From positions 1-64,000 of IMG/VR virus record IMGVR_UViG_3300044612_002233: DNA of 64,000 nt. One strand, given 5' to 3'. Origin of the DNA: a virus. A model generated the notes under the pieces. It ran no database searches. It worked only from the letters and a program-made list of their open reading frames with translations, and had not been told where the DNA came from. The translations under genes were made by a program, and so were the position numbers. Below, one piece after another: positions 6,913 to 61,400 of this stretch (position 1 is its first letter; every line of letters starts with the position of its first letter).

Positions 6913-8039
6913 TGCAAAAAATTATAAATGAAATTAAATTAGATTTTGATGATGTTCTAATCAGACCTAAAAGATCAACACTCAATAGTCGATCAGAAGT
7001 TTGTATTCAAAGAGAATTTAAGTTCAAATATTCTCCACGAAAATTACTAGCAGTTCCCGTCATGGTTGCGAATATGGATACTGTTGGAACTTTTGAGATG
7101 GCAAAATCATTAGGAAAAAATCAAGCCATAGTATGTTTGCACAAACACTATAAGATTAATGAATATGTTGCTTTCTATACTGATCCTAGTATTTTAAATA
7201 AAAATCTTGCATTTTATTCTATTGGAACTAGCCAAAAAGACACAGAAAAACTAATTGAAGTATTCAATCAAATTAAAAAATTTAATTACCCTACCCCTAA
7301 TATCTGCTTAGATGTTGCAAATGGGTATACAGAACAGTTTGTTAAAATTGCTCGTAAAATAAGAAATTTATATCCAGAATCAGTTATCATGGCCGGTAAT
7401 GTTGTAACCCCAGAAATGACAGAAGAATTAATCATTCATGGTCAGGTTGACATAGTAAAGGTTGGTATAGGATCGGGCAGTGTTTGTACTACTCGTTTAA
7501 AAACTGGCGTAGGATACCCTCAGTTGAGTGCGGTGATGGAATGTACGGACGCTGCTCATGGCCTTGGTGGACACGTTTGCTCAGACGGTGGGTGTAAAGT
7601 GGTGGGGGATGTTTGCAAAGCATTTGGTGCAAATAGTGATTTTGTTATGTTAGGAAGCATATTTGCTGGCACAGACGAGTGTGAAGGAGAATGGAAATAC
7701 GAATATTTAATTGAGGCAGGATCATCTGCTCCTGGATTTTGGCAGCCAATAGATCCAGAAAATAATAGCATAAAAAGAAAAATATCTTTGCAATACTATG
7801 GAATGAGTAGTTCCAAAGCTATGGATAAGCACCATAATGGCGTTGCAGATTATAGAACAGCAGAAGGTAAGTGCGTTACTGTTCCATATAAAGGAATAGC
7901 AGAAGAAGTACTTCAAGATATTTATGGAGGAATACGAAGTGCTTGTACTTACATAGGCGCTAGTAAAATAAAAGATTTTGGCAAAAAAACAACATTTATA
8001 CAAGTCAACAATACCCATAATAAGATATATGAAAAATGA
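6912..8039 (+). CDS. guaC: GMP reductase (IMPDH/GMPR family)
   Basis: The 375-residue protein matches the catalytic barrel of the IMPDH/GMP reductase family. It has LDFDDVLIRPKRSTLNSRSEV near the N-terminus (split around DDVLIRPK), GIGSGSVCTTR with the catalytic Cys, GVGYPQLSAVMEC, CSDGGC and, near the C-terminus, YYGMSS, VPYKG and GGIRSACTYIGA. The absence of a CBS domain insertion and the match to animal-type GMP reductase loops favour GMP reductase over IMP dehydrogenase. The enzyme converts GMP to IMP and ammonia with NADPH. It overlaps the next gene by 4 bases. Confidence 0.88.
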   Translation: MQKIINEIKLDFDDVLIRPKRSTLNSRSEVCIQREFKFKYSPRKLLAVPVMVANMDTVGTFEMAKSLGKNQAIVCLHKHYKINEYVAFYTDPSILNKNLAFYSIGTSQKDTEKLIEVFNQIKKFNYPTPNICLDVANGYTEQFVKIARKIRNLYPESVIMAGNVVTPEMTEELIIHGQVDIVKVGIGSGSVCTTRLKTGVGYPQLSAVMECTDAAHGLGGHVCSDGGCKVVGDVCKAFGANSDFVMLGSIFAGTDECEGEWKYEYLIEAGSSAPGFWQPIDPENNSIKRKISLQYYGMSSSKAMDKHHNGVADYRTAEGKCVTVPYKGIAEEVLQDIYGGIRSACTYIGASKIKDFGKKTTFIQVNNTHNKIYEK

Positions 8040-9094
8040 AAATCAATTATTCAAGTCCAGTTAATAACACAGGTTACGGATTAGCCTCGGTCAACATTTT
8101 ACGAGAACTATCGAAGATAGCAGATGTAACTTACTATCCAATAGGGCAACCATCAGTTAATAATCAAAATGATCATGACTTTATACTTTCTTTATTAAAG
8201 AAGAGGATGAGTCCTGATATTAATGCTGTTAATTTTAAGATCTGGCATCAATTTGATTTACTAGATCATATTGGACGAGGAAAATATATTGCCTATCCAT
8301 TTTTTGAGTTGGATACATTTAATGAATATGAAAAAATTAATTTGAAAGTTCCAGACAGCATATGTGTTAGTAGCAAATGGGGTCAGGAAGTTCTACTTAA
8401 GAATGGAATAGATTCTGAATCATTCGTGGTGCCATTAGGTGTTAATAGAAATATTTTTAATAATACTATCAAAAGAACTAGATCAGATGATAAATATGTT
8501 TTTCTAAATATAGGCAAATGGGAAGTTCGTAAAGGACACGATATTTTATTCTCATTATTTAATGAGGCTTTTCCAGATCAAAAAGATGTTGAACTATGGA
8601 TATTAGCATCAGAAAAAACCAATTCATATTCATCTGCTGATGAGCTAAAACAATGGAAAAATATGTATGGTTCAGATAGAGTGAAATTATTTGATGGATT
8701 TGAAACTCAAGAAGAAATAGCCCAATTAATAGCAGATACTGATTGTGGATTATATCCATCAAGAGCAGAAGGGTGGAATTTGGAACTATTAGAAACCATG
8801 AGTATGGGAAAACCGGCCATAGCGACCAACTATTCTGCACACACAGAGTTTTGCACACAGGATAACTGTTATTTGGTCAATATTGACGAGACAGAAAAAG
8901 CTTTTGACGGAAAAGCATTTCAAGGTCAGGGGAATTGGGCCAAATTAGGCAATAATCAGATAGAAAATATTATTGAGCATATGAGATATGTTTATAATAA
9001 TAAAATAAATACTAATCTGAATGGAATAGAAACGGCCAAAAAGTATTCTTGGGAGAATGCTGCTCAACAACTTGTGAGGTGTATTTCTAAGTAG
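8036..9094 (+). CDS. Family 4 glycosyltransferase
   Basis: The 352-residue protein is a GT-B enzyme of the GT4 type. The N-terminal half has NNTGYGLASVNI near residues 10-21 and CVSSKWG near 113-119. The C-terminal half has FLNIGKWEVRKGHDIL near 150-165 and YPSRAEGWNLELLETMSMGKP near 236-256 (split around EGWNLE), the donor-binding signature with its Glu residues. No membrane segment. It closes the first glycan cluster. A GGTGTATT sequence at its 3' end may be a weak copy of the phage promoter motif. Confidence 0.85.
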   Translation: MKINYSSPVNNTGYGLASVNILRELSKIADVTYYPIGQPSVNNQNDHDFILSLLKKRMSPDINAVNFKIWHQFDLLDHIGRGKYIAYPFFELDTFNEYEKINLKVPDSICVSSKWGQEVLLKNGIDSESFVVPLGVNRNIFNNTIKRTRSDDKYVFLNIGKWEVRKGHDILFSLFNEAFPDQKDVELWILASEKTNSYSSADELKQWKNMYGSDRVKLFDGFETQEEIAQLIADTDCGLYPSRAEGWNLELLETMSMGKPAIATNYSAHTEFCTQDNCYLVNIDETEKAFDGKAFQGQGNWAKLGNNQIENIIEHMRYVYNNKINTNLNGIETAKKYSWENAAQQLVRCISK

Positions 9095-16137: not shown

Positions 16138-17361
16138 ATGACTACTAATCGTTTTGCTTTAACGTCTGACATAAATGAGCTTCCATCTTCTGTTTCTGTA
16201 AGTGGTAGTGATCTATTCGCCTTCTCTGATGATCCCGCCTCTGCAACAGTAACCAGAAAAATTACTTTTAGTGGCATAAGAACTTCAATATTTAATCAGC
16301 CAACAACTCTTCAATTGAGACAAGGCACAAATACAGAAAGAACATATATTACTCCATCTAGTGGAGAACCAATATGGACCACAGATAATAAAAAATTATT
16401 TGTTGGAGATGGATCCGCAGTTGGAGGAATTCTTGTAGGGCCATATACTCCTCCAGAACTTACAAATGGCAACTCAAATAGTGGCACTCTTTCTATTATT
16501 TGTGGAGGAACAGGCAATAATATAGCTAATGGATCTATATATAGTAATATTAATGGGGGTTTAACTAATTATGGTAGTGGAGTTTCGTTTTGCATAGCGG
16601 GAGGAAGCAATAACAGCATAGGAACAAATGGTTCTTATTGTGCTATTGGTGGGGGTCAAAATAATAATATTCAATCACAACATTCTACAATAGCAGGAGG
16701 ATTATCAAATATAATAGGAACAATCGTCCCATATTCAACAATAGGAGGAGGAATCTCCAACAGGTCTTATGCTACCGGTGTAACAATATGCGGCGGAGCG
16801 CTCAACATTTCCTACAATACATATGGAACCATATGTGGTGGTTTTTCTAACCATATTTATGGTAATTATGCAACAATTATAGGAGGAAATTCTGCTAAAG
16901 CAACACTTTATGGGCAAGTTTCTCATGCCGCCGGACATTTTGCTAATCGCGGAGATGCTCAACATACTACTTTAATAGCACGACAAGAAACATCTGACAC
17001 AACAGATACTGTGCTAACACTCGACGGTCTAGCCCCATCTGTTGACAACACTATACTGCTCACAGCCAAAACTTGTTGGATGTTTACAATTAAAGTAAGT
17101 GCATATAATGATTCAGACAACATTGGGGCGTCATGGCTCCTAAAAGGAGGAATAAGAAGAAATAATTCCAATCAAACAACTTTAGTTGGAAATGTAACAT
17201 CAGAAAGCTGGATAGAAAGTGGAATGTCTGGAACATCAGTCTCAGTAACAGCAAACAATACCAGTGACACACTAGAAATAACAGCAAAAGGATTGGCTGG
17301 CAAGAATATTCGCTGGGTAGCATTACTTGATATTTGCCAAGCAAGCTATGGTGTTCCATGA
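16138..17361 (+). CDS. Fibre protein with Mtd-N-like start and YadA-like repeats
   Basis: The 407-residue protein has three parts. Residues 60-110 contain LQLRQGTNTER, then GEPIWTTDNKKLFVGDG, like the N-terminal domain of phage tropism fibres (Mtd-N type). Residues 120-255 hold about eight repeats of the form IxGGxxNxI-G, read as YSNINGG, YCAIGGG, HSTIAGG, YSTIGGG, GTICGG and ATIIGG, typical of left-handed beta-roll adhesin heads. Then AAGHFANRGDAQHTTLIAR leads to a beta-sandwich-like C-terminal domain. A receptor-binding role at the virion surface fits well. It overlaps the next start by ATGA. Confidence 0.75.
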   Translation: MTTNRFALTSDINELPSSVSVSGSDLFAFSDDPASATVTRKITFSGIRTSIFNQPTTLQLRQGTNTERTYITPSSGEPIWTTDNKKLFVGDGSAVGGILVGPYTPPELTNGNSNSGTLSIICGGTGNNIANGSIYSNINGGLTNYGSGVSFCIAGGSNNSIGTNGSYCAIGGGQNNNIQSQHSTIAGGLSNIIGTIVPYSTIGGGISNRSYATGVTICGGALNISYNTYGTICGGFSNHIYGNYATIIGGNSAKATLYGQVSHAAGHFANRGDAQHTTLIARQETSDTTDTVLTLDGLAPSVDNTILLTAKTCWMFTIKVSAYNDSDNIGASWLLKGGIRRNNSNQTTLVGNVTSESWIESGMSGTSVSVTANNTSDTLEITAKGLAGKNIRWVALLDICQASYGVP

Positions 17362-18617
17362 TGTATGACGCAGTTAATGCTCCGGGTAACTGCGGAACTG
17401 TCAATAATGATCCTCCACAATACACTATTCGTCAATCAGCAATTGGAGGAGACGATATAAAGATAACTGTCGAACCATTTACTCGAATAATATCATCAAC
17501 AGCATCGTCTTACGTTTTATATGACGCTAATCTCATAAATAATACCAGTACGCTCACAGTTACGGACCACCTCGTGTCTGTATCAAAAACAAATAATATC
17601 TCAGATATTGACATATATAGTTTAAATACTAATGTAGTAAATACTATTAGTTCTTATAATGGAGGTACGATGGTTGCCTCTGGAGTTAATACTGGCTCCA
17701 CATCAATAGTTGCTAGCGGAATTAATTTAATAAATAATTTTAGTATTGCTGATGTACAAATCACAAGGATTGGTGGACAATCCATAACTTCTTTTTCTTC
17801 GTATTTAAATGGAACACTTGGTAAGCACTGTAGTGATGCTATAGATACTAGGATAGTAGGGAAAAATTCATTAACTACAAAACCCATTTTTACTACGCAA
17901 AATCATTCAAATTCCACATATGTTAGGAATACTAATTGTTGGGCTTATGATTTAGATTTAACTTGCATAAGTCCTTGGAATACAACTGGAGCAAATACTA
18001 TGGCTGGAACTTTGATCAGCCCATGTCATATTGTTTTTGCAACGCATTTCCAGATCGATACTGGAGCTAAAATTAGATTTATTACTAATAATAATGTTGT
18101 TATAGAAAGAACAATGATTGATAAAATTGATATAGCTAATGATATCACATTAGGTATTTTAGATAGCGACGTTCCAGGCACCATATCTTTTGCAAAAATT
18201 TTACCGAGCAATTGGTCAAACTATTTGCCAAACTTATGGGGAAATAGTGCTCATCCGACCAATAACAGCACATTATGCAAAGTGCCTATACTTTGTCTTG
18301 ATCAAGAAGAGAAAGCATTAGTACATGATATGAATATTGGAGGAGGAAATTGCGGATGGAGAGCTCCGATTGCAGGTGATAGATTGTCTTTTTATGAGCC
18401 TATAGTTCTTTATGATAGTGGGAATCCATGTTTTCTAATTGTGAACAATTCATTAGTTTTAATGTCAACATATTCATATTCAGTTAGTGGTCCGTTTTAT
18501 CCTGCATATATAACCTCGATCAACACTGGTATGAATACGCTTTGGACAAGAAATGGAAAATCAGGAAGCTCTTATTCTATCACAACAGTAGATTTAACTG
18601 GATTCACATCATTTTAA
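17358..18617 (+). CDS. Trypsin-like (PA clan) serine protease with Ig-like N-terminal part
   Basis: The ATG at 17358 overlaps the fibre stop and gives 419 residues; a TTG 24 bases upstream is inside the fibre gene and less likely. Residues about 25-130 look like a BIG2-type Ig domain (GVNTGSTSIVASG). The C-terminal half carries the chymotrypsin triad in order: SPCHIVFATHF with His230, NDITLGILDSDVP with Asp262, and YDSGNPCFLI with Ser354, in place of TAAHC, NDIALL and GDSGGP. No signal peptide is seen. It may be a virion protease acting at the host surface or a self-processing fibre partner. Confidence 0.65.
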   Translation: MMYDAVNAPGNCGTVNNDPPQYTIRQSAIGGDDIKITVEPFTRIISSTASSYVLYDANLINNTSTLTVTDHLVSVSKTNNISDIDIYSLNTNVVNTISSYNGGTMVASGVNTGSTSIVASGINLINNFSIADVQITRIGGQSITSFSSYLNGTLGKHCSDAIDTRIVGKNSLTTKPIFTTQNHSNSTYVRNTNCWAYDLDLTCISPWNTTGANTMAGTLISPCHIVFATHFQIDTGAKIRFITNNNVVIERTMIDKIDIANDITLGILDSDVPGTISFAKILPSNWSNYLPNLWGNSAHPTNNSTLCKVPILCLDQEEKALVHDMNIGGGNCGWRAPIAGDRLSFYEPIVLYDSGNPCFLIVNNSLVLMSTYSYSVSGPFYPAYITSINTGMNTLWTRNGKSGSSYSITTVDLTGFTSF

Positions 18618-19872: not shown

Positions 19873-20366
19873 ATCCCAAACTTAAAACAGGTCTTTTAAT
19901 ACTTGCTCTTGCATTATTAGGAATTGGCATACTAAAACCAGATCTTGGCTTTAATAATCCAGTATCTCCATCTGCTGTTGTTGAGTTGGACGTTAAGGAA
20001 CCAGAATCAGTAGAACTTAAAGAAAAAGCAGACGCTGTTATAAAAGCATTATCTGTTGATTCTGATCGTAAAACTGATGGTTTGAGATTAGCTTATTTAT
20101 ATAATGATATGGCAACATTAGTTGGTCTTGATGGAGATAGTGAGGTGATTAAGAATACTGAAGAAATTAGACAAGCTAACAGACTAGCTGGTTTAATGTT
20201 AAGACTAGATATTAAGGGCAAATATGAAGACCTACCAGAAGCTGCTCAAGCATTAGTATTAACAGCAATTGGTGATGACAATGTTTTATTAAATAAAGAC
20301 CTTAGAGCTAAAGCTGTTGATGGTTTGAAAGCTTTATCCTGGGCCTGTTTACAAGGAAGCAAATAA
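19869..20366 (+). CDS. Membrane-anchored or secreted protein (165 residues)
   Basis: The ATG at 19869 has AAAGGAA 8 bases upstream and overlaps the previous stop; a TTG at 19848 is less likely. Residues 5-24 are a hydrophobic signal or anchor (LKTGLLILALALLGIGIL). The rest is a helical, soluble domain with KADAVIKALSVDSDRKTDGLRLAYLYNDMA (split at SVDSD). No catalytic motif is seen. It ends with a stop that overlaps the papain-like gene by one base. Confidence 0.55.
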   Translation: MNPKLKTGLLILALALLGIGILKPDLGFNNPVSPSAVVELDVKEPESVELKEKADAVIKALSVDSDRKTDGLRLAYLYNDMATLVGLDGDSEVIKNTEEIRQANRLAGLMLRLDIKGKYEDLPEAAQALVLTAIGDDNVLLNKDLRAKAVDGLKALSWACLQGSK

Positions 20367-21292
20367 TGCCAAGACTTTCACCACAAGAATTATATGATAA
20401 TTATCGCAAGGGCTTTAGTGGATGCTTGTGGGAGCAGCACATATTTGATGAATTGATGCAAAATAGCAAATATCCATTATTTGGTAGTGCTAGTAAAAAA
20501 ATTAAGAGTAGTGGTAAGGGCAAATTATCAACTCCATATAAGAGTGTGTTAAAGTTTGACAAAAACCCTTATAATGAAAGACAAACTACTGGAGATTGTG
20601 TGAGTCATGGAACACGAAATGCTTGTGATGTTAGTAGAGCTGTCGAAATAGATGTTCATGGAGAAAAAGAAGCTTGGATAGCAAGAGGAGCAACAGAAGC
20701 TATTTATGGTGCTCGTGGTCATGGTGGAGAAGGAATGAGTTGCTCTAGGGCTGCTGAATTTGTTAGTAAGAATGGTGGCATACTACTAAGACAAAATTAT
20801 AAGGGGGTAGCCGACTTTACTAAATATAATGGTAATCTAGGAGCCGGTTGGGGAGGACGAGGATTACCAGATAAGGTTATTGATGCAGCTAATGATCATC
20901 AAATTAAAACAACCAGTTTAATAAAAACAGTAGAAGAAGCACGAGATGCTTTAGCTAATGGTTATGGTTTAGCCGTATGCTCTAATTATGGATTTTCTAA
21001 TAAGAGAGACAAGAAGGGCATTGCAAATACTAGCGGAAGCTGGGGCCATTGTATGGCTTGGATAGCATGTGACGATACCGGAAGCGAACCATTATTCTTA
21101 GTTCAAAATAGTTGGGGCAAATGGAATGACGGTGGTCATCCAGAATGGGGCCCCATACCAGACGGCAGTTTTTTAATACGAGCCGACGTAGCAGCAGGGA
21201 TGCTTTCACAAAATGGAAGTTATGCGTTTAGTAATTTTGACGGATTCCCTGTTCAAAAGCTACCATCTTACGGTTTTGAAGACTATCTATAA
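20366..21292 (+). CDS. Papain-like (C1 family) cysteine protease
   Basis: The 308-residue protein has the C1 peptidase triad in order: TTGDCVSHGTRNAC with Cys78, GSWGHCMAWIAC with His228, and LVQNSWGKWNDGG with Asn248, the last being nearly identical to the papain NSWG loop. The usual inhibitory propeptide is short or absent, since only 77 residues precede the Cys. There is no secretion signal. In a phage this could process a virion protein, act as a virion-carried protease, or cleave host surface proteins. It follows two membrane proteins in the same transcript. Confidence 0.8.
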   Translation: MPRLSPQELYDNYRKGFSGCLWEQHIFDELMQNSKYPLFGSASKKIKSSGKGKLSTPYKSVLKFDKNPYNERQTTGDCVSHGTRNACDVSRAVEIDVHGEKEAWIARGATEAIYGARGHGGEGMSCSRAAEFVSKNGGILLRQNYKGVADFTKYNGNLGAGWGGRGLPDKVIDAANDHQIKTTSLIKTVEEARDALANGYGLAVCSNYGFSNKRDKKGIANTSGSWGHCMAWIACDDTGSEPLFLVQNSWGKWNDGGHPEWGPIPDGSFLIRADVAAGMLSQNGSYAFSNFDGFPVQKLPSYGFEDYL

Positions 21293-22632: not shown

Positions 22633-25296
22633 TTGTATTTGGGATTATGTAAAGACAATGATAATTCCGAAATCTTAAATGATCTTAACTCTTTAAAGTG
22701 CCAAACTAAAGTTAGTTATCATGAAAATTATGGAGCAGATATAGCTCCTTTTTTATCTCAGCTTCATGATATAAAAGAGTCTCTTTTTATTAAAATCCAT
22801 GGTAAAAAAACCAATATAGGAACTCATAACCATGTGAATTGGAGATCTGTTTTATTAAACGATTTGATTGGTGGCCCAGATATAATAAATTCAAATGTCT
22901 TAGCGTTTGAAGATGAATCAGTCGGTATGATATCCCCAAGACCTTTCATATGGTCCAACTTAGAGGGATCGAACTCCTCCAAGATACAGAAACTATGTTT
23001 AGAACTGAATATAGATTATAACTTAGTTAAAGATGGAAATTTTGTTGCTGGATGTATGTTTATGTCCAGGACAAAAATTTTTAAAAGTATTTTTACTAAA
23101 AAGAAAATAATAAACATATTAAAACTACTTACTGAAGAAATCAACAAAGTAGAAGATATAGTTACTGGAACATATTCACATTCTCTTGAAAGAATTTTTG
23201 GTTATATTATTAAATTTAAAAACTTAACTATTAGTAATAATATTATAGATAATTATATCTTAATTAAGAACACAGACACACAAAAAATATTTCATGCAAT
23301 AAAACTATATACTAACTTTATTTATCTGCTAGAAGATATGAATGTTTATGGAGAAATATTAAAAGAAACAAATAATACTAAACTAATTCGATGGTATCAC
23401 TTGAATAGTCCAATAGATCAATCATATGATTTATCGGAAGATGGCTATTTTATTTCCAATGGGAACAATTCCAGTCTTTTAGATGATTCTAAAATTAATT
23501 TTAAGTTTAAAACTCCTAGTAGTATATCGGTATCTATACTTTTATTTTATCCAGAGGAGTTATCTTTAAAATCTATTAATAATATATGCTCTATGCTATT
23601 TAATAAATGTAATGAGCTAAATCTATTAAAGATAATACTAAATATTAGAAATAATTCATTAAATTATAATTCAGAAATTATTAAAAATAATATTTTAAAT
23701 TTACAAAAATACTATAGTGATTTAAACGATTTAGATGTAGAAATTAATTATTTTGAAAATTTTAACTATGGCTATGGCCGTGGTCATAATGAAAACTTTA
23801 ATATTAATTCCAACACAGAATATTTTTTAATCATGAATGACGATATATTATTTCCTAATCTAGATTGGATGAATAGATGTTTTAAAGAATTTGATGAACA
23901 AGAAAATTTAGCAATTATAGGATCAGAGCAGTCTCCTCAATTTTTAGATAATTTAGCCAACGGAATACTAAGACCTATAATCGAAACAAATAATCCAGAC
24001 TATTCTGAGGGATCGATACTTCTGATAAAATCAGATATTTTTAAACAGATTAATGGATTTGATACTTCTTTAGAATATTGTTATTATGAAGACGTAGATT
24101 TATGTTTTAGAGTTAAGCAGCTTGAGTATAAGATTAAAAACATAACTATTAAACATCAGCATTTTAGATCAAGTAGTTCATCAAAACTTCCAATAATAGC
24201 AAGAGAATCCATAAGCGAATTAAATAGAGCAAAATTTTTATCTAAATGGGGTGGATTTATACAAGGAAAAAAAGAAAATTTATATAATAATATATTAATA
24301 AATATAGATTTTGATGGATTTGGTGATATTGTTGACTGTTACTATCCTATTAAACAGCTATTATTGAATAACTTAAACAATAATATATATTTATATATTT
24401 CATCTAATTTATTTCATTTATATTTGTCTTTAATCTTTTTTCATCCAAATATAACCTTCATAAAAAAAGAAGAAATCGATAATATAAATTATGATAGTAT
24501 ATACTCAACAAAAAATTTAAATCTATCTCCACCATATCATACTATGGATATTATTGCATCTAAATTTGGAGTGGTTGACTTTGATACTGATCCAACGGTC
24601 ATATGCTCTTATTATAAAGATAAATTAAAACATTCAACAATACTAAAACCAGATAAAAAGTATATTGTTATTCATTTTGACTCTCAAAGAGCAGGTTTTG
24701 AGTCAAGGATGCCCAATCAAGAAATATTAATCCCTATAATTCAAAAATTTAGTAAAGACTATAAATTTATTATTTTAGGTAAACATCTAGACATATCAAA
24801 TATTGAATTTGAAAACTTTATATCAATCTTAAAAGACAATAACATTCTTTACGATTATAGAGATTCAGGATCAATAGAGGATATGTTCATGCTAATTTCA
24901 GAATGTTTTATGTTTTTAGGCGTTGACTCAGGGCCAAGTCATATAGCTCAATTATTTAATATTCCCAGCTATATTATATATGGCCCAATAAATCCCGCAA
25001 CTAAAATATATAGATATCACAATTCTGGTTGTTATTATAATTTAAATCATGAGTCTGGTTCTGGAACATATCATAGATCATTAAGGCCGTCATATCATTA
25101 TGACATGAGGAGAGATGAAAATTGTATAAAAGAAATAAATAGTTCTTTTTTGATGGAAGATATTGAAAAATTTATATTAAATAATTTTATCTTTGATTGG
25201 ATTCCTATCTTTGATTCTTTAAGGAGAAATCAGAGAGAGGCACTACTACTACAAATGCATAATCCTCTATATAAAAATAAAATTTTAATTAATTAA
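22633..25296 (+). CDS. RgpF-GT2-GT9 trimodular glycosyltransferase
   Basis: The protein has three glycan domains. Residues about 1-190 match rhamnan synthesis protein F, with GADIAPFL, FIKIHGKKTN and FVAGCMFMSR. Residues about 285-550 are a GT2 domain with FLIMNDDILFP and CYYEDVDLCFR. Residues about 555-860 are a GT9 (heptosyltransferase-like) domain with IDFDGFGDIVD and LGVDSGPSHIAQLFNIPSYIIYG (split after HIAQL). The TTG at 22633 cuts the family N-terminus. The frame stays open back to 22507, and 22549-22632 encodes LAIVLYLYHTDLWPEF and the next residues of the RgpF fold, with no ATG, GTG or TTG. Confidence 0.85.
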   Translation: MYLGLCKDNDNSEILNDLNSLKCQTKVSYHENYGADIAPFLSQLHDIKESLFIKIHGKKTNIGTHNHVNWRSVLLNDLIGGPDIINSNVLAFEDESVGMISPRPFIWSNLEGSNSSKIQKLCLELNIDYNLVKDGNFVAGCMFMSRTKIFKSIFTKKKIINILKLLTEEINKVEDIVTGTYSHSLERIFGYIIKFKNLTISNNIIDNYILIKNTDTQKIFHAIKLYTNFIYLLEDMNVYGEILKETNNTKLIRWYHLNSPIDQSYDLSEDGYFISNGNNSSLLDDSKINFKFKTPSSISVSILLFYPEELSLKSINNICSMLFNKCNELNLLKIILNIRNNSLNYNSEIIKNNILNLQKYYSDLNDLDVEINYFENFNYGYGRGHNENFNINSNTEYFLIMNDDILFPNLDWMNRCFKEFDEQENLAIIGSEQSPQFLDNLANGILRPIIETNNPDYSEGSILLIKSDIFKQINGFDTSLEYCYYEDVDLCFRVKQLEYKIKNITIKHQHFRSSSSSKLPIIARESISELNRAKFLSKWGGFIQGKKENLYNNILINIDFDGFGDIVDCYYPIKQLLLNNLNNNIYLYISSNLFHLYLSLIFFHPNITFIKKEEIDNINYDSIYSTKNLNLSPPYHTMDIIASKFGVVDFDTDPTVICSYYKDKLKHSTILKPDKKYIVIHFDSQRAGFESRMPNQEILIPIIQKFSKDYKFIILGKHLDISNIEFENFISILKDNNILYDYRDSGSIEDMFMLISECFMFLGVDSGPSHIAQLFNIPSYIIYGPINPATKIYRYHNSGCYYNLNHESGSGTYHRSLRPSYHYDMRRDENCIKEINSSFLMEDIEKFILNNFIFDWIPIFDSLRRNQREALLLQMHNPLYKNKILIN

Positions 25297-25297
25297 T

Positions 25298-26074
25298 ATG
25301 TCTACTAAAAAAAATAAAATAGAAATCGTTTTATTTATTAAAAACGAAGAAGAATTAATAGAGTCCTCTATTCTATATCACAAGCAGATTACTGATAAAA
25401 TAACTATAATAGATAATGGATCTACAGATAAAACATTAACTATAATCAGTAAATATTTAAATGATAATATCTCTTTGATTATAGACAATAGTAGTTTTGA
25501 CAACAAGGGTAAAATATGCACAAAACAAATTCAAGATTCCAGTGCAGATATTGTAGTTCCATTAGATGCTGATGAGTTTTTATTATATGATAATGGATTA
25601 ATAATTAAGGACAGTCCAAAACTTATTAGAGAATATTTACAACAGCTACCAATCAATGGGCACATGTATAAAATTAATAAGGTTTATAACAAAATAGAAA
25701 ATACTAATAATTATTGTATAGATAAAACTTATAATTCTAATAAAATTATTTTTCCAAAATTAGGATTCATTGAAACAGACTGTGGATTTCATTTTGGTAA
25801 AGTGTCATCAGATGATAGTGATAATAAAACATATAATATAGACATATCATATTTGCATTTTCACTATTTGTCAAAAGAGCGTTGGTTAAAAAGCTGCCAC
25901 CAAAAGTTAAAAGCTAGACTACAAGATAAATTTAATAATTTAGAGAGTATCATAGATTTAGCTGGCACAACAAACAGGTCAAACCACATAGCGAAAGAAA
26001 TGCTATATTACTTAGCTTCTAATAGATGGCATAGATTAAAACAAGATATTGTATTTGATACTTATAATATATGA
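25298..26074 (+). CDS. Family 2 glycosyltransferase
   Basis: The 258-residue protein is a GT-A enzyme with IVLFIKNEEELIESSI near residues 10-25, TIIDNGSTDKTL near 37-48 and the metal site VVPLDADEFLL near 86-96. The C-terminal part is short and has HFHYLSKERWLKSC, often seen in this subfamily. It starts one base after the trimodular gene and overlaps the next by 4 bases. Donor and acceptor are unknown. Confidence 0.82.
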   Translation: MSTKKNKIEIVLFIKNEEELIESSILYHKQITDKITIIDNGSTDKTLTIISKYLNDNISLIIDNSSFDNKGKICTKQIQDSSADIVVPLDADEFLLYDNGLIIKDSPKLIREYLQQLPINGHMYKINKVYNKIENTNNYCIDKTYNSNKIIFPKLGFIETDCGFHFGKVSSDDSDNKTYNIDISYLHFHYLSKERWLKSCHQKLKARLQDKFNNLESIIDLAGTTNRSNHIAKEMLYYLASNRWHRLKQDIVFDTYNI

Positions 26075-27081
26075 CTAAGATACTCTCAAAACTAGATTAT
26101 AATAATATTTGGGAATATTATCTAAATCTATATAAAACATGCTCAAATAACAAAGAATTTATTTCTGCAGTAACCGAAGAAAATAAAATAGTTTTTTCTA
26201 ATATGGTTAATAATAAAGATATATATATAAAACATAATATTGATTTAGTATCTAGCTTTAAAAATAATTCTTTAATTACTGTCCGTTTAGGTGGCGTAGA
26301 GAGCAGATTTTTGGTTAATAATTATTTTTTTAAAACTATTCCAATCAATTTTAAAGACAGTCATCATGCAACTGATGATTCACAAATGAAATCAAATGCT
26401 GGAATGTATTATATTAAAAATACAGATAAAACAATGGTAAATGATTGGTGGATTTTAAACACAATAAATTTATTAAAAAATAATAAAGTTACATATATGT
26501 CGTGTTTCTTGGTCCTTCATTACGATCTATATATTCTTGCCTTATTAGATATAAAAAATAAAGTAATTGACTCTTATACTAGACAAAGCGAGTTAATACA
26601 ATATTTCTATGATAGAAAAATTCTTGTAATATCTAATGGAATAGAAGATATGCATAGATCATATAAATTAGGTTTACAAAGACTATACAATATAGATATA
26701 CATGAAGAAAAATTAAATATATCATTCATAAAGTGTCCTCAAACTACAGTCGGCATGGAAACACCACATAGTAATATGATAGAAACAACACAATCTATAA
26801 TAGATTTAATTGATAAACGATATAATGATTTTGATACAATATTATTTTGCTGTGGAGCATACTCTTCAGTATTAATTAATTTATTATCAAAAATATATAT
26901 TAATAAAAACTTATTATATTTTGGATCAGAACTATATACTATGTTCGGTCTCTATTCTAACGGAATAGATAAGCCAACTACTAGATCCGAAATGTTTGTT
27001 ATAAATAATTTTTTGCCAATAGAACAGCCATGTCCAAAAAACTGTAAAAATATCGATGACGGTAAGTATTGGAAAAAATGA
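26071..27081 (+). CDS. GT-D-like glycosyltransferase (tentative)
   Basis: The 336-residue protein has SLITVRLGGVESRFL near residues 68-82, where GT-D (DUF1792-type) enzymes carry R-x-G-D/G-E, and a later Rossmann-like part with ILVISNGIEDMHRSYKLG and DTILFCCGAYSSVLINLLSK. The order matches the GT-D plan. The usual acidic residue is present as E, but the match is loose. No membrane segments. It is the last gene of the second glycan cluster; a stretch with a host-like promoter follows. Confidence 0.45.
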   Translation: MTKILSKLDYNNIWEYYLNLYKTCSNNKEFISAVTEENKIVFSNMVNNKDIYIKHNIDLVSSFKNNSLITVRLGGVESRFLVNNYFFKTIPINFKDSHHATDDSQMKSNAGMYYIKNTDKTMVNDWWILNTINLLKNNKVTYMSCFLVLHYDLYILALLDIKNKVIDSYTRQSELIQYFYDRKILVISNGIEDMHRSYKLGLQRLYNIDIHEEKLNISFIKCPQTTVGMETPHSNMIETTQSIIDLIDKRYNDFDTILFCCGAYSSVLINLLSKIYINKNLLYFGSELYTMFGLYSNGIDKPTTRSEMFVINNFLPIEQPCPKNCKNIDDGKYWKK

Positions 27082-30003: not shown

Positions 30004-30735
30004 TTGAGAAAAACCAATAAAAACTCAAAGAAAAAAACTAAGGTTATTGATGCGACAAATAGTTTGGAACCCAAAGGAGCAGCTTATAGAAATCGATTAA
30101 AACCAAGAACAGAAAACCAAAAAGAATACATAAGGACTGTTGCAGAAAATACTATTACGTTTTGTCAGGGCTTAGCTGGTAGTGGTAAAACACACATTGC
30201 TATCGGAATGGCTCTTGAATATCTTTTAGACGAAAAAGTAAAAAAGATTATTATCACAAGACCAATATTAGAAGCCGGAGAAAAAATGGGATATCTCCCA
30301 GGATCAGCAGAAGAAAAATTACATCCTTATCTATTACCAATACTAGATGAAATTGGACACTTCATAAGTTCAGCACATTATGCTTCACTAAGATTGAATA
30401 ATAAAGTTGAAGTAGTGCCACTTGGACTCATGAGAGGTCGTAATTTTCATAATGCTTTTATTGTTGCCGACGAGTGCCAGAACGCATCATATGAACAATT
30501 AAAAATGTTAATAACAAGAACAGGACAATCTAGTAAAATGGTTTTAACTGGTGACGTTGCTCAGTCTGACCTAAGCAGACATCTGCAAGGTGGTTTTAGC
30601 GATATGATATCGGCCCTTAATGGAGTTGAAGGTATAGGCTATTCTAAATTAGAAGCCTCAGATATTGTAAGAAATCCAATTATCTCTAAAATCTTATATA
30701 GACTTGATGACTATGAGCAGCAAAGCCGAAAATAG
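30004..30735 (+). CDS. phoH: PhoH-like P-loop ATPase
   Basis: The 243-residue protein has Walker A CQGLAGSGKTHIAIG near residues 54-68, ITRPILEAGEKMGYLPG near 85-101, Walker B FIVADECQNAS near 155-165 and TGDVAQSD near 183-190. This is the PhoH signature; the family binds ATP and is related to RNA helicase cores, with no firm role in phages. The start is TTG, with AAGGG 6 bases upstream and no in-frame ATG before the P-loop. It overlaps the next gene. Its leader carries the promoter motif and an inverted repeat. Confidence 0.88.
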   Translation: MRKTNKNSKKKTKVIDATNSLEPKGAAYRNRLKPRTENQKEYIRTVAENTITFCQGLAGSGKTHIAIGMALEYLLDEKVKKIIITRPILEAGEKMGYLPGSAEEKLHPYLLPILDEIGHFISSAHYASLRLNNKVEVVPLGLMRGRNFHNAFIVADECQNASYEQLKMLITRTGQSSKMVLTGDVAQSDLSRHLQGGFSDMISALNGVEGIGYSKLEASDIVRNPIISKILYRLDDYEQQSRK

Positions 30736-46932: not shown

Positions 46933-46961
46933 TAAAGATATTTAAACCCTTTTAAAGATAT

Positions 46962-46990
46962 GGGGGTGCTAATACCACCCCTGTATTTTT
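46962..46990 (+). terminator. Hairpin and T-rich tail after SSB (terminator or leader hairpin)
   Basis: GGGGTG (46963-46968) pairs with CACCCC (46976-46981) around a 7-base loop, followed by TGTATTTTTATC. It would end the SSB transcript. The next gene starts at 46999 with no visible ribosome site. Confidence 0.6.
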
Positions 46991-46998
46991 ATCTTCTT

Positions 46999-48669
46999 AT
47001 GACAAAACCAAAACTTAAAATCTTGATGTGTTCTGAAGCCAGTTTCATAAATTCTGGTTTTGGAATTTATACTAAGGAGCTTCTTAATAGACTGTACGAT
47101 ACCAATAAGTACGATATAGCAGAATTTGCTTCGTATGGATTTGTTAATGATCCAAGAGATACTTCTATAAGATGGAAGTATTATGCTAATGCCGTAAAGG
47201 ATGGAGATCCTAGACACAAAGAATATTCTTCTAGGGGAGATAACCAATTTGGAAGGTGGAGATTTGAAAAAGTTTTGTTGGATTTTAAGCCAGATGTTGT
47301 TATTGACATAAGAGATTATTGGATGACGGCTTATCAAAGAACGTCCCCACTACGTAAGTTTTTTCATTGGATACTTATGCCAACAGTAGACTCTTCTCCA
47401 CAACAAGAAGAATGGATTGATACTTTCTTAGACGCAGATGCTATATTTACATATTCTGATTGGGGTGCAAAAGTATTACAAGACCAAGCATCTGGTAAAA
47501 TCAACTATATCGATACAGCATCCCCAGGAATAGACTGTGATATTTTCAAGCCAAAAGACAGAAATACAATCAGATCAGCTTTTGGAATAAGTGAAAATAG
47601 TTTTGTTGTTGGTTCAGTAATGAGGAACCAAAAGAGAAAATTAATTCCTGAACTTTTTTCAACTTTCAGAATTGTTCTAGATAAATTAGAATCAAATAAT
47701 AATAAAGAGCTAGCAGATAAAATGTTCCTGTATCTGCATACTAGCTATCCAGATATGGGATGGGATATACCAGAGATACTAAGACAAAATAGACTAACCA
47801 ATAAGGTATTGTTCACATATCTATGCAAAAATTGTGGTAATGTTTCTTGCTCAAAATTCCAAGGACCAACTAAAGTATGTGAGAGATGTCTAGCAAAAGC
47901 CAGCGGCTTCCCATCTGTTACAGACGGGGTTAGCTCTGAGCAATTAAGTAATATATATAATATATTTGATATGTATGTACAGTATTCTATTTGCGAAGGA
48001 TTTGGTATGCCCCAAGTTGAGGCTGGTGCTTGCGGTGTCCCTATTGCTACAGTAAATTATAGCGCTATGTGTGACATAGTAGATAAGTTGAATGCTTATC
48101 CTATAAAAATTAAATCAGCATTCAAAGAATTAGAGACCAAGGCTATAAGAGTATATCCAGACAATAATGATCTTGCTGAATACATTTTAGACCTAGCATC
48201 TCAACCAAAACCAGTTCTTAATAAAAAAAGATTTGAAACTCATGAATTGACACATAAATATTATGATTGGAACAATGCTTTTAAGAAATGGGAAAAATAT
48301 CTAGATAGTTTAGATTCCTCCGGCTATAGGTCAAATTGGAATGCTGGAGAATATCTGGAGCCATTAAATACCCAGATCAATAATCCTAACAATAGTAATT
48401 TTGATAATCTTTTACATATTTTAAACGATAATATGAAAAATGCATCAATGATTGGGAGTCAAAAGATTCTAGAACTATTGAACAGTTCAGATTATGGGTT
48501 TGTTCAAAATGGACCAACAAGTATTCTTGGATATAGTTTTCAAGATCTTAAAGAATATATTAGAACAAATATAGAGAATAATAACCAAGCAAAACAAGCC
48601 AAAGACAGTGATATTAAATTTGATGAAGATTTTATCTTATATGCAAAATTAAAGAATAAACAACAATGA
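46999..48669 (+). CDS. Family 4 glycosyltransferase with zinc ribbon insertion
   Basis: The ATG at 46999 begins MTKPKLKILMCSEA; an earlier ATG at 46960 would read through the hairpin and is not convincing. The 556-residue GT-B protein has FGIYTKELLNRL early and YVQYSICEGFGMPQVEAGACGVP (split at FGMPQ) late, the donor-binding Glu motif of GT4. Between these is an insertion with CKNCGNVSC and CERCLAK, a zinc-ribbon-like four-Cys site near residues 272-300, uncommon in GT4 enzymes. A C-terminal 120-residue helical extension follows. No ribosome site is seen. Confidence 0.82.
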   Translation: MTKPKLKILMCSEASFINSGFGIYTKELLNRLYDTNKYDIAEFASYGFVNDPRDTSIRWKYYANAVKDGDPRHKEYSSRGDNQFGRWRFEKVLLDFKPDVVIDIRDYWMTAYQRTSPLRKFFHWILMPTVDSSPQQEEWIDTFLDADAIFTYSDWGAKVLQDQASGKINYIDTASPGIDCDIFKPKDRNTIRSAFGISENSFVVGSVMRNQKRKLIPELFSTFRIVLDKLESNNNKELADKMFLYLHTSYPDMGWDIPEILRQNRLTNKVLFTYLCKNCGNVSCSKFQGPTKVCERCLAKASGFPSVTDGVSSEQLSNIYNIFDMYVQYSICEGFGMPQVEAGACGVPIATVNYSAMCDIVDKLNAYPIKIKSAFKELETKAIRVYPDNNDLAEYILDLASQPKPVLNKKRFETHELTHKYYDWNNAFKKWEKYLDSLDSSGYRSNWNAGEYLEPLNTQINNPNNSNFDNLLHILNDNMKNASMIGSQKILELLNSSDYGFVQNGPTSILGYSFQDLKEYIRTNIENNNQAKQAKDSDIKFDEDFILYAKLKNKQQ

Positions 48670-55455: not shown

Positions 55456-58400
55456 TTATTCATATTCGTATGGTATCATTTCCCACGGAAAATAACTAGC
55501 AGCAACATCTGACTTATTTTCTATTTTGTCAACACTGCCAAAAAATGACCTGAATATCATTTCATTTTGTAGTTTAAAAAAGTCCGGCAATGTTGTTGGC
55601 TCAAGACTAAATGTTGCAGGATTCCTTTGTAGTGCCACCCAAACATACAGACTATTATTTATATTACCTACTTGAGCATTAACTAAATCTGTTTCGTATG
55701 GAACTGGGGGACTTGTAAAACTAGCTGGTCTAAAATCAGACTTTGATCCATATCTATATACTGTGGATAAAATATCAACTCCTCTTAACATTCTAGGTAT
55801 TCTTTTTACCATCACAGATATATTATTTGCATTGTCTAGATTCACGATATTACAAACTCTGGTTGGTTTTCCTATTCTAGTATTGTCTAATGTCATCATG
55901 CCTTTTCCTCCTGGACTTCCAATATTCGTTTGACAACTACCAATTCCCGGCAAATCTAAAGTATCACCAGAATTATCATTGCCTTGATTTTCATTTGTTA
56001 ATGGTACTGCATATAGTTCTGTTGATTCTATTGTTATCTCAGCACCTGGACCAAGGATATTATCCATGGTTTGATCACCATTAATATTAAAATATCTTAG
56101 TTTAGTCAAAGTTTTCCATCCTGTAATAGCAGGATACTGTCTCTGGAATGCGGTTTTTTGTTGATCAATAGCATTACTATTTATTGTATATGTAAACTCA
56201 TCAACATTAGATGTCACATTCTCTGTCGCACCAAAATCAAATTTTATTGTTTGATTAGGTTTAGTTGTAAAGTATGGACATATATTGTTATCTATATAGG
56301 GACTAGCAACACCCAGAACGGGATTAGCTTCTGTGCATTTATATTTTGTTGAAATTAATACTTTTGGATTGCTGTCAAAATCTTGAAAACACGACTGCTT
56401 ACTGTCAATATTAATCCAGTAATGATCTTTATTAGCCTCTCTGTAATAAATATAAATTGGACCAGACTGTTCTCCTTCATTTGCTCCTCGCCAATCAATT
56501 CCAGATAATACTGGTTCAATTTTTGGTAGTACGTGCGGAGATATTCTTCTAGGGTCCGTTATTGGTAGTGATGATTTTAATTTATAGTTAGAGTAATCCG
56601 ATCTGTTTAATTGGTATGTGGTATTATTTGCAGGAATATCAAAGACTGCTTGTTCGTCTAATAATTGTATTATTGAATTTTTTTCTTCTAATAAGTCTTT
56701 AATGGTTTTATATGTTCTAGTTTTATTGCATGCTAACACTAACGGCTGATTAGCGATGTCACAGTTGATGGGATCGTCTTCTAGTTTGTCGTAGTGTTTT
56801 TGCAAATATTTTAATTTAGAAGAATTTAATATTGTTGACGTTGATCCTGGAACACCAACCGCTCCTTCAAGCGCAGTGTCTACTCCTGTGCTCTCAATAG
56901 TAGATAATCTGGAAGTAAGCCAACTAAACTCATTACTAGTAATAGATCTCATTGGTTTATATTCATAATACTTATTCTCTATCTCTAACTCACCAGTACT
57001 TATTCCTGAAGTTAATGGATTTAGTCCATCATCTGTTCGTATGATTGAAAAATTACTTGGTATATCATTATATGAAGATGAGAACTCTATATTTTTAACT
57101 ATCACATCATGATTAGTGGTATCATCGGTATCGGATTTAATATAATAATAATCCTTATTTTCTTTTTCTTTTCTAAAGATTGGAGTTAAAACATTCAAAT
57201 CTTCTTTAGAATATGAGAAGCCATAGCTAGAATTAGAAACAAAACCAGTATTTTCTACCCCACTTACAAAGATTTTTATCTTGTTATGCTTTATCTTATC
57301 GTTATTTCTATTATTAAAAATATCATTAATTTCTTGTAATTGATTATTATGTATGTTATTTGACAATATATTTTTATTAACAAACAAAGACATGTCGCCA
57401 TAAGATCCAACTGAATGAGTTGTTGGAGCAATATCTGTTATATTATTGAATACGTTTTTATTAATATAATCTGATCCCCATATATTGTATTTTTTACTTG
57501 TCTTATCTATAATCGTTGTTTCGTCTTTATATGTTAAGAAAATATTCATTGTATTAGGAACAGACATTAGGTTGTATCCAGAAACACTATTCTCAAATAC
57601 CAGTAAAGAATAGTATTTATTATTTTTATAAATTAATCCCTTTTTACTTATTGTTGCATTAGTTGAGGAGACTCCAGAACAACTAACTATATCTCCCTTT
57701 TTAAATATGTCATAAGGTATTTTGCCTTTGACTAGCACAGCCTTATTGTCTGATAAATCGGTACTAGATAAAGAATTAGAAGATCCTAAAATAGCATTAT
57801 GCTGTAAATAATGGTTTGCTTTAGATAGTGCTGAAGGATCTAGTTTCAGATTTGTCCAAGTTTCATTATTTCTTGCAATACATATTTGCGATGGATTTTC
57901 ACATTCATTTCCTGTAAATGCAACCCTAACTATATCTCCTTCGTTGATGAATGAGTCCGATATAGCAGCGGGCAGAGGTGAACTTGGTAAATTTGATTCA
58001 CAGCTTAAATTTATTTGTTTAATAAAATTTTGATCAATTAAGTCTTCAATAGAATTAACAAGATCAAATGAGAAATCTCCTAATCCATCTACCCCTCCAG
58101 ATAATTTTATAAACTTGTATCTATCTGGTTTTAGTATTGGGGTGTTATGATATTTAAAAATACTAGCTTCAGCAGTATACCATAAAGAGTTAGGCTTTTT
58201 AAAGTTTATTAATATTTTTTCTGGTGACCCAAATGGGTATTTTGCATAACTGGGAAAATAAATCTGTCTTCCTTGATTTGTTAAATTTTCAGCAAATCGA
58301 ACTTCTTTAAAATAATCAAAAATAGCATTATAGCCAGGACTATTTACCGCGCCCTCAAGACCAGCTAAAGCGCCAACTAAAGTTCCCCCAGTAGTTGCTC

Positions 58401-61400
58401 CATAACCAGCTAGAGCAGTCATAATTTGTATTATAGCATAATATGGGAATACTGGTGGCCTAACCATAACCCCCTGACCTGTTGGATCATCCTGGGATGT
58501 TAAACACGTTGTTGAGTCAGATATGCAGGAGTAGGGAGCATTATAATTAGCTATTGGAAGTAAGTGTTTTTGATCTGTCAGATCCGTTATAAAACTGTAT
58601 GATGGATATGATGGATCTTTTTTATAGTCAAATAATGACAAAGCATCATTATTACCATAAGAGGCTAAACTGGGATTGGTATTTGGTACTGGATCTCTAA
58701 CAGAACCAACATGAAGTATCAATTCCCAATTGCATAATGAATTATATAATAAATGTGATTTTGTATTAGTTTCTGTACTCTCTAATCCCGACAAATACTG
58801 ATTATTTATTGTTGAATCTAAAACATTCATATCGTCTTCTTCATCAAGAACCATAATATTCAGAGTAAATGTGGTTTTTCCATCAAAATCCCCATCTCTT
58901 TGTTTTGGCGAGCCCTCTAAACACGGCCCAGATTCTGGAGCTAGATTTTTAAAAAGTAATTCTGAAACGAACTTACTAAAACTATTGTTACTAATATTTA
59001 ATTTATTATGTTTTATAATAGAAGAATATTCACAACACTCTCTATCAGAATATCCTGTTGCGGCTACAGTTGGCAATAATTCATCATTTGATCTTATGAT
59101 ATTTTGCATTTTAGAAACTTGACTTGTCATATAAGAATACTGTCCACTTGGATGATAATATCCAGAACCTAACAGATTCATATCACAAGGAGTATTATGC
59201 TTTGAAGCGTGATCTGAGAATTTCACACTAAAATTATACTTATTATTTTGTATTGTTTCTTGGTTTAATAAAACCAGTTTAAATGAGCTAGGTGATGCTC
59301 CTGATGGACTATTGATTCCAACTAAATCTTTCAGATAATTTTCAATCTTTGCATTATTAAGAGATCCTGTGATTCTATTCTGGTTTGTCGAATAATTTCC
59401 AAAAAATATCCTAGGATCGAATGTTTGATCTAAAAATTCTGAAGTGCTTTTGAGTGGGGATGGTGGAGGATTGGCCATGGAACGAAATCTAGGAACGCCT
59501 TCAGCATCACAGTAATCAACATCTAGCCAAACAACCATATTTTTGGTATTAACATAATTTAAAAAGTTTAATTTAACCTCAATATCTTTTATTCCAAATC
59601 CATTTACTCTTGGAATTCTAAATTGCATTCGTCCATCTGGTAATTGAATTTTTTCTGGCAAAGAATGAGGTCCGGTAACAGCAAATGAATAAGAAAAATT
59701 AGTTTGACCCTGATCGGTTAAAAACTCGTCGTTAGCTATTGGATAATTATTTGTGGCTGTTGGTTCTATGCCTTTTGGTTCTCCACCAGAAAGTATTCTG
59801 TATCCATGATTACTAGAATTATTAACACTTGTGATTTTTGTATCTATATAATTTTTATGTTTTTGATTATTATTATATAATTCAATATCCTGCCCCGGCC
59901 TTATATCTGCACAAGAACATAACATATCCCACTGAATTTCTTTTGCTATTCCTAATGTTATTGAACTGGAAAAAGTTTTTGATTGTATTGTGCTATTCTC
60001 AATATTTATTGGTCCAGATCGTAATCTTGTTATTTGTGGGCCTAAGAAACTAAAAGAGTCTCTTGCTCCAGGATTAAACTTTAATACTGATCCTCTATTT
60101 GCATGTATGGAATACTCATTTCCTCCAGAATATGGTATCCATCCACTATTTGGATGAAAAGCCCCTTTAGTAAATGGCATTATTAAACCGGTGCCACTTA
60201 CCATTACTGCTTTTTGATAGCATAATTTATATGTTGATGTATCCGGAAAATTACGATAGTTTAATGGAAAACCGGTTACAACAGGTAGATTTGTTGATGC
60301 TCCTTGTCCAGCAACTATTCCTTTATCATTAATTGAGACCTGTGGTTTGGTGAGTCCATTAATATCTACTCCTATGGAATCTATGAATTTTTTACTATAT
60401 CCTCCATAGGCTTTAACTTTTGGTGCTTTTTTTGTACTAATCACTGGGAAATTAAAAATACCACTATCTCTAATACATTTTGCTAAATTTCTTGTAGTAT
60501 CCCACTCGTATGCTCTTAGCTGAAATGCTTCAGGATCCTTATTGGTTCTTGTGGTTTTATTAAAGTCATAATTTTTTGTGTCTACAATATTTCCATTGCT
60601 ATCTGAGGTAGAAATTTTAGCATGACTTTTATAACTTCTAATTTTTGGAAAATATAAGCTCAAACATTGAGAACATTCGTCTTGATCTGTTCTAATTTTT
60701 TCTAGCCAGACCGAATGCAATTTTACTATTGTATTATTAGTTTCAAATATCAAAGTTAGTGGACATGTATCTTTATGTGTATAATTTGCACTATAGCTAA
60801 AAATATAATCTTTAGATAATGAATATACATCGTCTTGGCTTGCTGAGCCAAATGTTCCTATAAATTCTCTAACAGAAAAATCTGTTTTTATCGGATAAAT
60901 CACCCCATGATAATTACTAATTGCTATTTTGTTTATCTTTGATATGTTTGATTTTACTAGATCTTTATCAAGAATTAATGGAATATTTTCATTCGCAATG
61001 TACGATGGAGTAACCGACGGTGGATATACCCAAGATATGTTTTTACTATCCCAATATTTACCATAAGAAATAGCATTTTCTTTCATAGCCCCACCCTGAC
61101 CAATCACTAACTGTCTACCATCAACAATGTATACGGTTTTTTGTTTTTTAAATGTCCCAAACGGACTAGATATTGTGCATTGAAAAGTATATTTACCAGT
61201 ATAATTTGCATAGAATGTAACCTCATTAGAGGTTCCAGACAATAGTTCATTTTTACCAAAAGTTCCCTGCGGACCTTCTAATTGTTCCCAAAAGAAAGAA
61301 TTTTGACCATTAATATAATTTGTTAAAAGAAGTATGGAGCCCTCATCATAAGATTTCTCTATTTCTGCTATCTCCAAAGCAACCAATTGTATACCAGATT

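Follow-up and report, generated by a model that had tools for sequence, protein, structure and literature searches.

We propose that a viral gene located directly behind a fibre gene encodes a PA-clan serine endopeptidase of the host-recognition module, which would be associated with the fibre and cleave host surface proteins; we judge this reading to be evenly poised between right and wrong. The gene lies in a stretch of 64,000 nucleotides (the window, positions 1 to 64,000 of the 120-kb IMG/VR record IMGVR_UViG_3300044612_002233). Sequence comparison and a structural model support the fold and the catalytic triad; they also support purifying selection in the family, the coupling of its genes to fibre genes, and fusion of the domain to adhesion domains. 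Translational coupling would have the protease made together with the fibre, and its Ig-like N-terminal domain would place it on or near that fibre. The enzyme would then cut host-surface proteins (of an S-layer, a sheath, an adhesin or a lipoprotein layer), and the virion could then get through to its receptor, much as polysaccharide depolymerases open up sugar layers. From these features we infer that the protein is incorporated in the virion, that the Ig-like domain attaches it, that the window copy is active despite an unusual Tyr352, and that the substrate lies on the host surface.

Phage enzymes that clear sugar layers are well known, and trypsin-fold enzymes that cut protein during adsorption are barely described; our searches of the open-access literature found none of a phage adsorption apparatus. 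The family, which counts at least 90 viral loci and escapes both Pfam and PHROGs, would offer phages a route past surface layers made of protein and would be a source of new phage proteases. Just as some phages bear sugar-cutting enzymes on the adsorption apparatus, others may bear protein-cutting ones there. The idea can be put to the test, since a relative is found in the cultured Anabaena lutea FACHB-196.

Table 1. Features of the fibre-protease region, in window coordinates
Feature	Position	Strand	Evidence
Partner fibre gene, 407 aa	16138..17361	+	Pfam Mtd_N E=1.3e-8; homologous fibres in related loci
Chymotrypsin-fold protease gene (predicted), 419 aa	17358..18617	+	ORF, ATGA overlap, relatives, model, fold matches
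Ig-like N-terminal domain, residues 34-149	17457..17804	+	strand-rich in model; Big_2 in relatives
Protease domain, ~residues 150-398 (double-barrel part and C-terminal helix 381-398)	17805..18551	+	pLDDT ~97; chymotrypsin matches
Putative catalytic His230 (chymotrypsin His57), FATHF	18045..18047	+	102/102; aligned with trypsin AAH motif
Putative catalytic Asp262 (chymotrypsin Asp102), NDITLGIL	18141..18143	+	102/102; in register with 4m7g
CLDQEEK family signature, residues 313-319, between Asp and Ser segments	18294..18314	+	
Tyr352 at oxyanion-hole position (chymotrypsin Gly193)	18411..18413	+	comparison with family members
Putative nucleophile Ser354 (chymotrypsin Ser195), YDSGNP	18417..18419	+	102/102; aligned with trypsin GDSGGP
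Conserved C-terminal tail SYSITTVDLTGFTSF; family form YxLTEIDLSxFxTY	18570..18614	+	ordered in model

A predicted chymotrypsin fold

The 419-codon reading frame is intact, without an internal stop. Its product matched nothing in Pfam, PHROGs or the PDB sequences, and neither PF00089 nor any other trypsin model appeared among the Pfam matches of 14 members at E up to 1; the protease domain is recognised by neither Pfam nor PHROGs. Peptidase_S74, the endosialidase-type intramolecular chaperone, likewise gave no match to the window protein or its relatives.

Structure prediction was more informative. An AlphaFold2 model built with 60 relatives reached a mean pLDDT of 89.7 (about 97 in the protease part) and a pTM of 0.84. 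The best 50 PDB matches listed by Foldseek were essentially all S1 chains (best E 2.8e-7, prob 1.00), the closest of those listed being chymotrypsin, factor IXa and trypsin; 8w20_C, a trypsin-like domain of an umbrella toxin, was also among them. Superposition of the model on chymotrypsin was moderate (TM about 0.55 by target length, rmsd about 5 Å). A comparison of the family profile with trypsin 4m7g, made without any structure, kept the register at each of the three triad residues (His, Asp and Ser), at an E of only 0.009. The model and the alignments give good support for a chymotrypsin fold in the window protein, with its triad intact.

The predicted fold, triad order, DSG at the serine and C-terminal helix resemble those of chymotrypsin and trypsin (MEROPS PA clan, S1). 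Unlike S1 proteases, to which identity is only 12-15%, the family drew no Pfam trypsin match in the 14 members; the window protein has DSGNP in place of DSGGP and no recognised activation peptide, and the CLDQEEK motif and the C-terminal tail are peculiar to its family.

Conservation and spacing of the triad

The His, Asp and Ser that a sequence-only reading had picked out are present at those sites and contexts, in chymotrypsin order, and all three are kept in 102 of 102 unique family domains, as are Asp353 and Pro357. These relatives comprise 64 viral sequences, 13 from bacterial contigs and 25 lipoprotein-like forms of Verrucomicrobiota. In a 60-sequence alignment with a mean column identity of 25%, only seven columns were invariant, and H230, D262, S354 and Asp353 were among them. 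Conservation of Ser354 was partly selected for, as the search probes contained DSGNP (GDSGNP); the serine was nevertheless retained in all nine members without an exact match to the Ser probe, and the His and Asp lay outside the probes. Triad conservation goes beyond chance. In member pairs that allowed measurement, dN/dS ranged from 0.09 to 0.36, indicating purifying selection. With the model, the PDB fold matches and the register with trypsin, the conservation strongly supports the proposed trypsin-like fold and triad.

Chymotrypsin spacing, also claimed in that reading, was borne out in part. The Asp-Ser distance in the window protein is 92 residues against 93 in chymotrypsin, whereas the His-Asp distance is 32 against 45; median values among viral members are 82 and 38, respectively. 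Because of this shorter His-Asp interval, the N-barrel half is predicted to be shorter than that of chymotrypsin throughout the family.

Tyrosine at the oxyanion-hole position

In chymotrypsin, the backbone NH of Gly193 helps form the oxyanion hole. At the corresponding position, 352, Gly occurs in 62 of the 64 viral members and in all other members; only the window protein and a near-identical relative (L001) carry Tyr, a peculiarity that had gone unflagged. On this point the window protein departs from what is looked for in a PA-clan protease, and, since Tyr replaces the oxyanion-hole Gly, there is more doubt about its putative activity than about that of the family. The tyrosine is probably not a read error, because it recurs in L001, which is distinct from the window at 13 codons. 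Twelve of these differences fall in residues 1-114 and one in the remainder. We considered a targeted swap and rejected it, as identity varies along the whole compared stretch; the pattern is read as general mosaicism.

Tyr352 bears on the possibility that the product, at least in the window phage, is a scaffold or adhesin that uses a trypsin fold to bind without cleaving. There is precedent in the UmbA proteins of Streptomyces, whose trypsin fold binds without cleaving, with an incomplete triad and no activity shown (PMC11062931). UmbA also resides in a particle that recognises bacterial surfaces, that of the umbrella toxins, and an umbrella-toxin domain (8w20_C) appears among the fold matches above. 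However, the present family does not show the incomplete triad of an UmbA-type pseudo-trypsin: the complete triad is kept throughout, at low overall identity, and such conservation would be hard to explain without catalysis. We consider binding alone to be doubtful.

Distribution and architecture of the family

Among 50,697 GenBank phage records, tblastn found a single relative, in the complete genome MW202510 (UOF78081.1, E 6e-16), which has a conserved triad and is annotated without function. An uncharacterised phage protein in BFVD, A0A6J7XEP5, was a fold match (E 5.8e-24); both likely belong to the family. Scans of IMG/VR yielded 19 loci at first; two peptide probes together with a profile then raised this to 90 confirmed loci, and 80 of them were retained. 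The suggestion that such proteases are rare in tailed phages thus holds for GenBank phages but not for IMG/VR. GTDB genome contigs contributed 40 loci, mostly from Verrucomicrobiota, Kiritimatiellota and Planctomycetota.

The presumed Ig-like character of the N-terminal part was supported by the modelled strands and by Big_2 (Pfam) matches in 5 of 14 relatives. CLDQEEK is near-invariant in phage and long bacterial members and is replaced by DQNRR-like sequences in the lipoprotein-like forms. The C-terminal tail is likewise present in phage and long bacterial members, even downstream of a LamG insert in L015, and missing from the lipoprotein-like forms. We rejected the DLSxF tail as a general sorting tag: it was seen on none of the unrelated proteins of the protease loci, and the single strong instance, at L014 10870-11148 (+), duplicates the C-terminal half of the protease itself as a remnant. 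That remnant lies directly downstream of a full protease gene, a sign of local duplication and decay.

The domain is fused to fn3 in L038, and a single frame at L096 7923-9833 (+), found again in L097 and L098, encodes a tandem pair of complete protease domains. On a contig of an uncultured bacterium, L112 14221-15030 gives a second match to the protease profile, weak and partial, near a long protease gene.

Coupling to changing fibre genes

The protease ATG at 17358 overlaps the TGA of the fibre gene (17359-17361) as ATGA. The claim of coupling to a fibre gene therefore stands, and such coupling recurs among relatives: of 48 viral loci examined, 34 have their nearest possible protease start no more than 30 nt away from the stop of the upstream gene. 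The fibre carries an N-terminal anchor with Mtd_N (16312-16416), the only one in the 120-kb record, then glycine-rich beta-roll-like repeats and a conserved C-terminal part with an AHAAGxFxxxGDAQ motif. Mtd_N suggested a diversity-generating retroelement, a candidate we dropped as the record gave no reverse transcriptase match.

Upstream of the protease, homologues of this fibre occur in L002, L006, L007, L029 and L037, and Mtd_N fibres were upstream in 7 of 40 loci. Other upstream types were found once or twice each (collagen, phage tail repeat, tail-tip domain, tail lysozyme, LamG, GDSL hydrolase, pectin-lyase-like). Many upstream genes were without informative annotation, and some are not fibres (sulfotransferase-like, glycosyltransferase-like). 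In MW202510, the protease gene sits behind the tail genes, flanked by a fibre-like 'rhamnogalacturonan lyase' and an 'fN3' gene. Because fibre coupling is real and recurrent in the family, a role of the protease in an adsorption module is likely, and we read the protease as a mobile module of the phage adsorption apparatus.

Two loci hold two fibre-protease cassettes in tandem (L002 5972-11302 and L006 2460-7610), in which the first ~100 fibre residues, the N-terminal anchors, are alike and the distal parts differ. One protease per fibre is what would be expected if, while the virion is assembled, the enzyme cut the fibre or some other tail protein and then perhaps stayed bound to it. Translational coupling agrees with such maturation; so does the finding that most phage forms have no evident signal peptide and would therefore act in the cytoplasm or the virion. 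Yet the fibre partners of different phages are not related to one another (beta-roll, collagen, GDSL, LRR-like), so that a shared cleavage site is not evident; the bacterial relatives lack a phage fibre; and the C-terminal placement of the domain on long adhesin-like proteins better fits an exposed enzyme. Fibre processing, one of two roles offered in the sequence-only reading, thus fits less well than a host-surface role, given that the partner type changes freely and that the domain is fused to adhesion domains and occurs in exported-looking, fibre-less bacterial proteins. We regard maturation as rather unlikely, if a little less so than binding alone. The other role offered, a virion enzyme acting at the host surface, is plausible.

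A holin-like gene (phrog_6918) and a papain-like gene lie just downstream of the window protease. This neighbourhood would suit a late product released at lysis to act on host envelope proteins or debris, but it is confined to one phage group; elsewhere the downstream genes vary and the upstream fibre-like gene recurs. As adhesion-domain fusions are also not usual for lysis proteases, a role in lysis or egress seems improbable. Cleavage at the host surface is preferred because the triad is kept while the fibre partners change, because the domain is fused to adhesion domains, and because the bacterial relatives look exported.

The proposed enzyme would resemble tailspike depolymerases and fibre-linked hydrolases in the position of its gene in an adsorption module and in the clearing of a surface layer. 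Unlike tailspike depolymerases, it would act on protein rather than polysaccharide and is a separate subunit in most phages.

Bacterial relatives and possible exchange

The 25 short Verrucomicrobiota forms have signal-peptide-like N-termini that end in a lipobox-like Cys, as judged by eye, and form a single supported clade (100/99). Some bacterial relatives exceed 1200 aa and contain TSP3 or beta-helix parts. From these features the bacterial relatives look exported. The 13 longer forms from bacterial contigs are interleaved with viral ones, a pattern that requires no fewer than 8 label changes across supported branches. This tree fits repeated exchange between phages and bacteria, although some bacterial contigs are proviruses or mis-binned phage: L107, from Anabaena lutea, has the same reading frame and score as L045 of IMG/VR. 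We suggest, tentatively and with less confidence than we place in the role of the window gene, that several unrelated phage groups share a mobile chymotrypsin-fold protease, absent from family catalogues, as a proteolytic counterpart of tailspike depolymerases. Exchange would have taken place with proteases of the surface or adhesin kind in Verrucomicrobiota, Kiritimatiellota and Planctomycetota, and the protease would be plugged behind or onto any fibre that a phage happens to have.

Other features of the window and record

Three models found neither a terminase nor a T4-type portal, the portal model being silent in control genomes too; phrog_2 matched weakly at 30034-30552. DNA polymerase matches listed among GenBank phages did not reach 30% identity, and for that reason we drew no conclusion on the host.

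The papain-like gene (20366-21292, +) encodes a 308-aa protein with the signature Gln73-x4-Cys78 (GDCVSH), His228 and Asn248 (NSWGKWNDGG). It matched Pfam Peptidase_C1 below the cut-off (E=0.012), had no PDB match and gave a model of pLDDT 32; it is 76-98% identical in seven related phages. The product is possibly a second protease, of another clan. Glycosyltransferase-like genes were noted by eye at 22633-27081 (+) and also lie at 8036-9094 and 46960-48669 (PHROGs confirmed two), a number unusual for a phage of such size. Very large reading frames occur at 55456-63183 (-) of the window (2575 aa, with no clear Pfam or PHROGs family match) and at G000 91262-103927 (-), the latter of 4221 aa.
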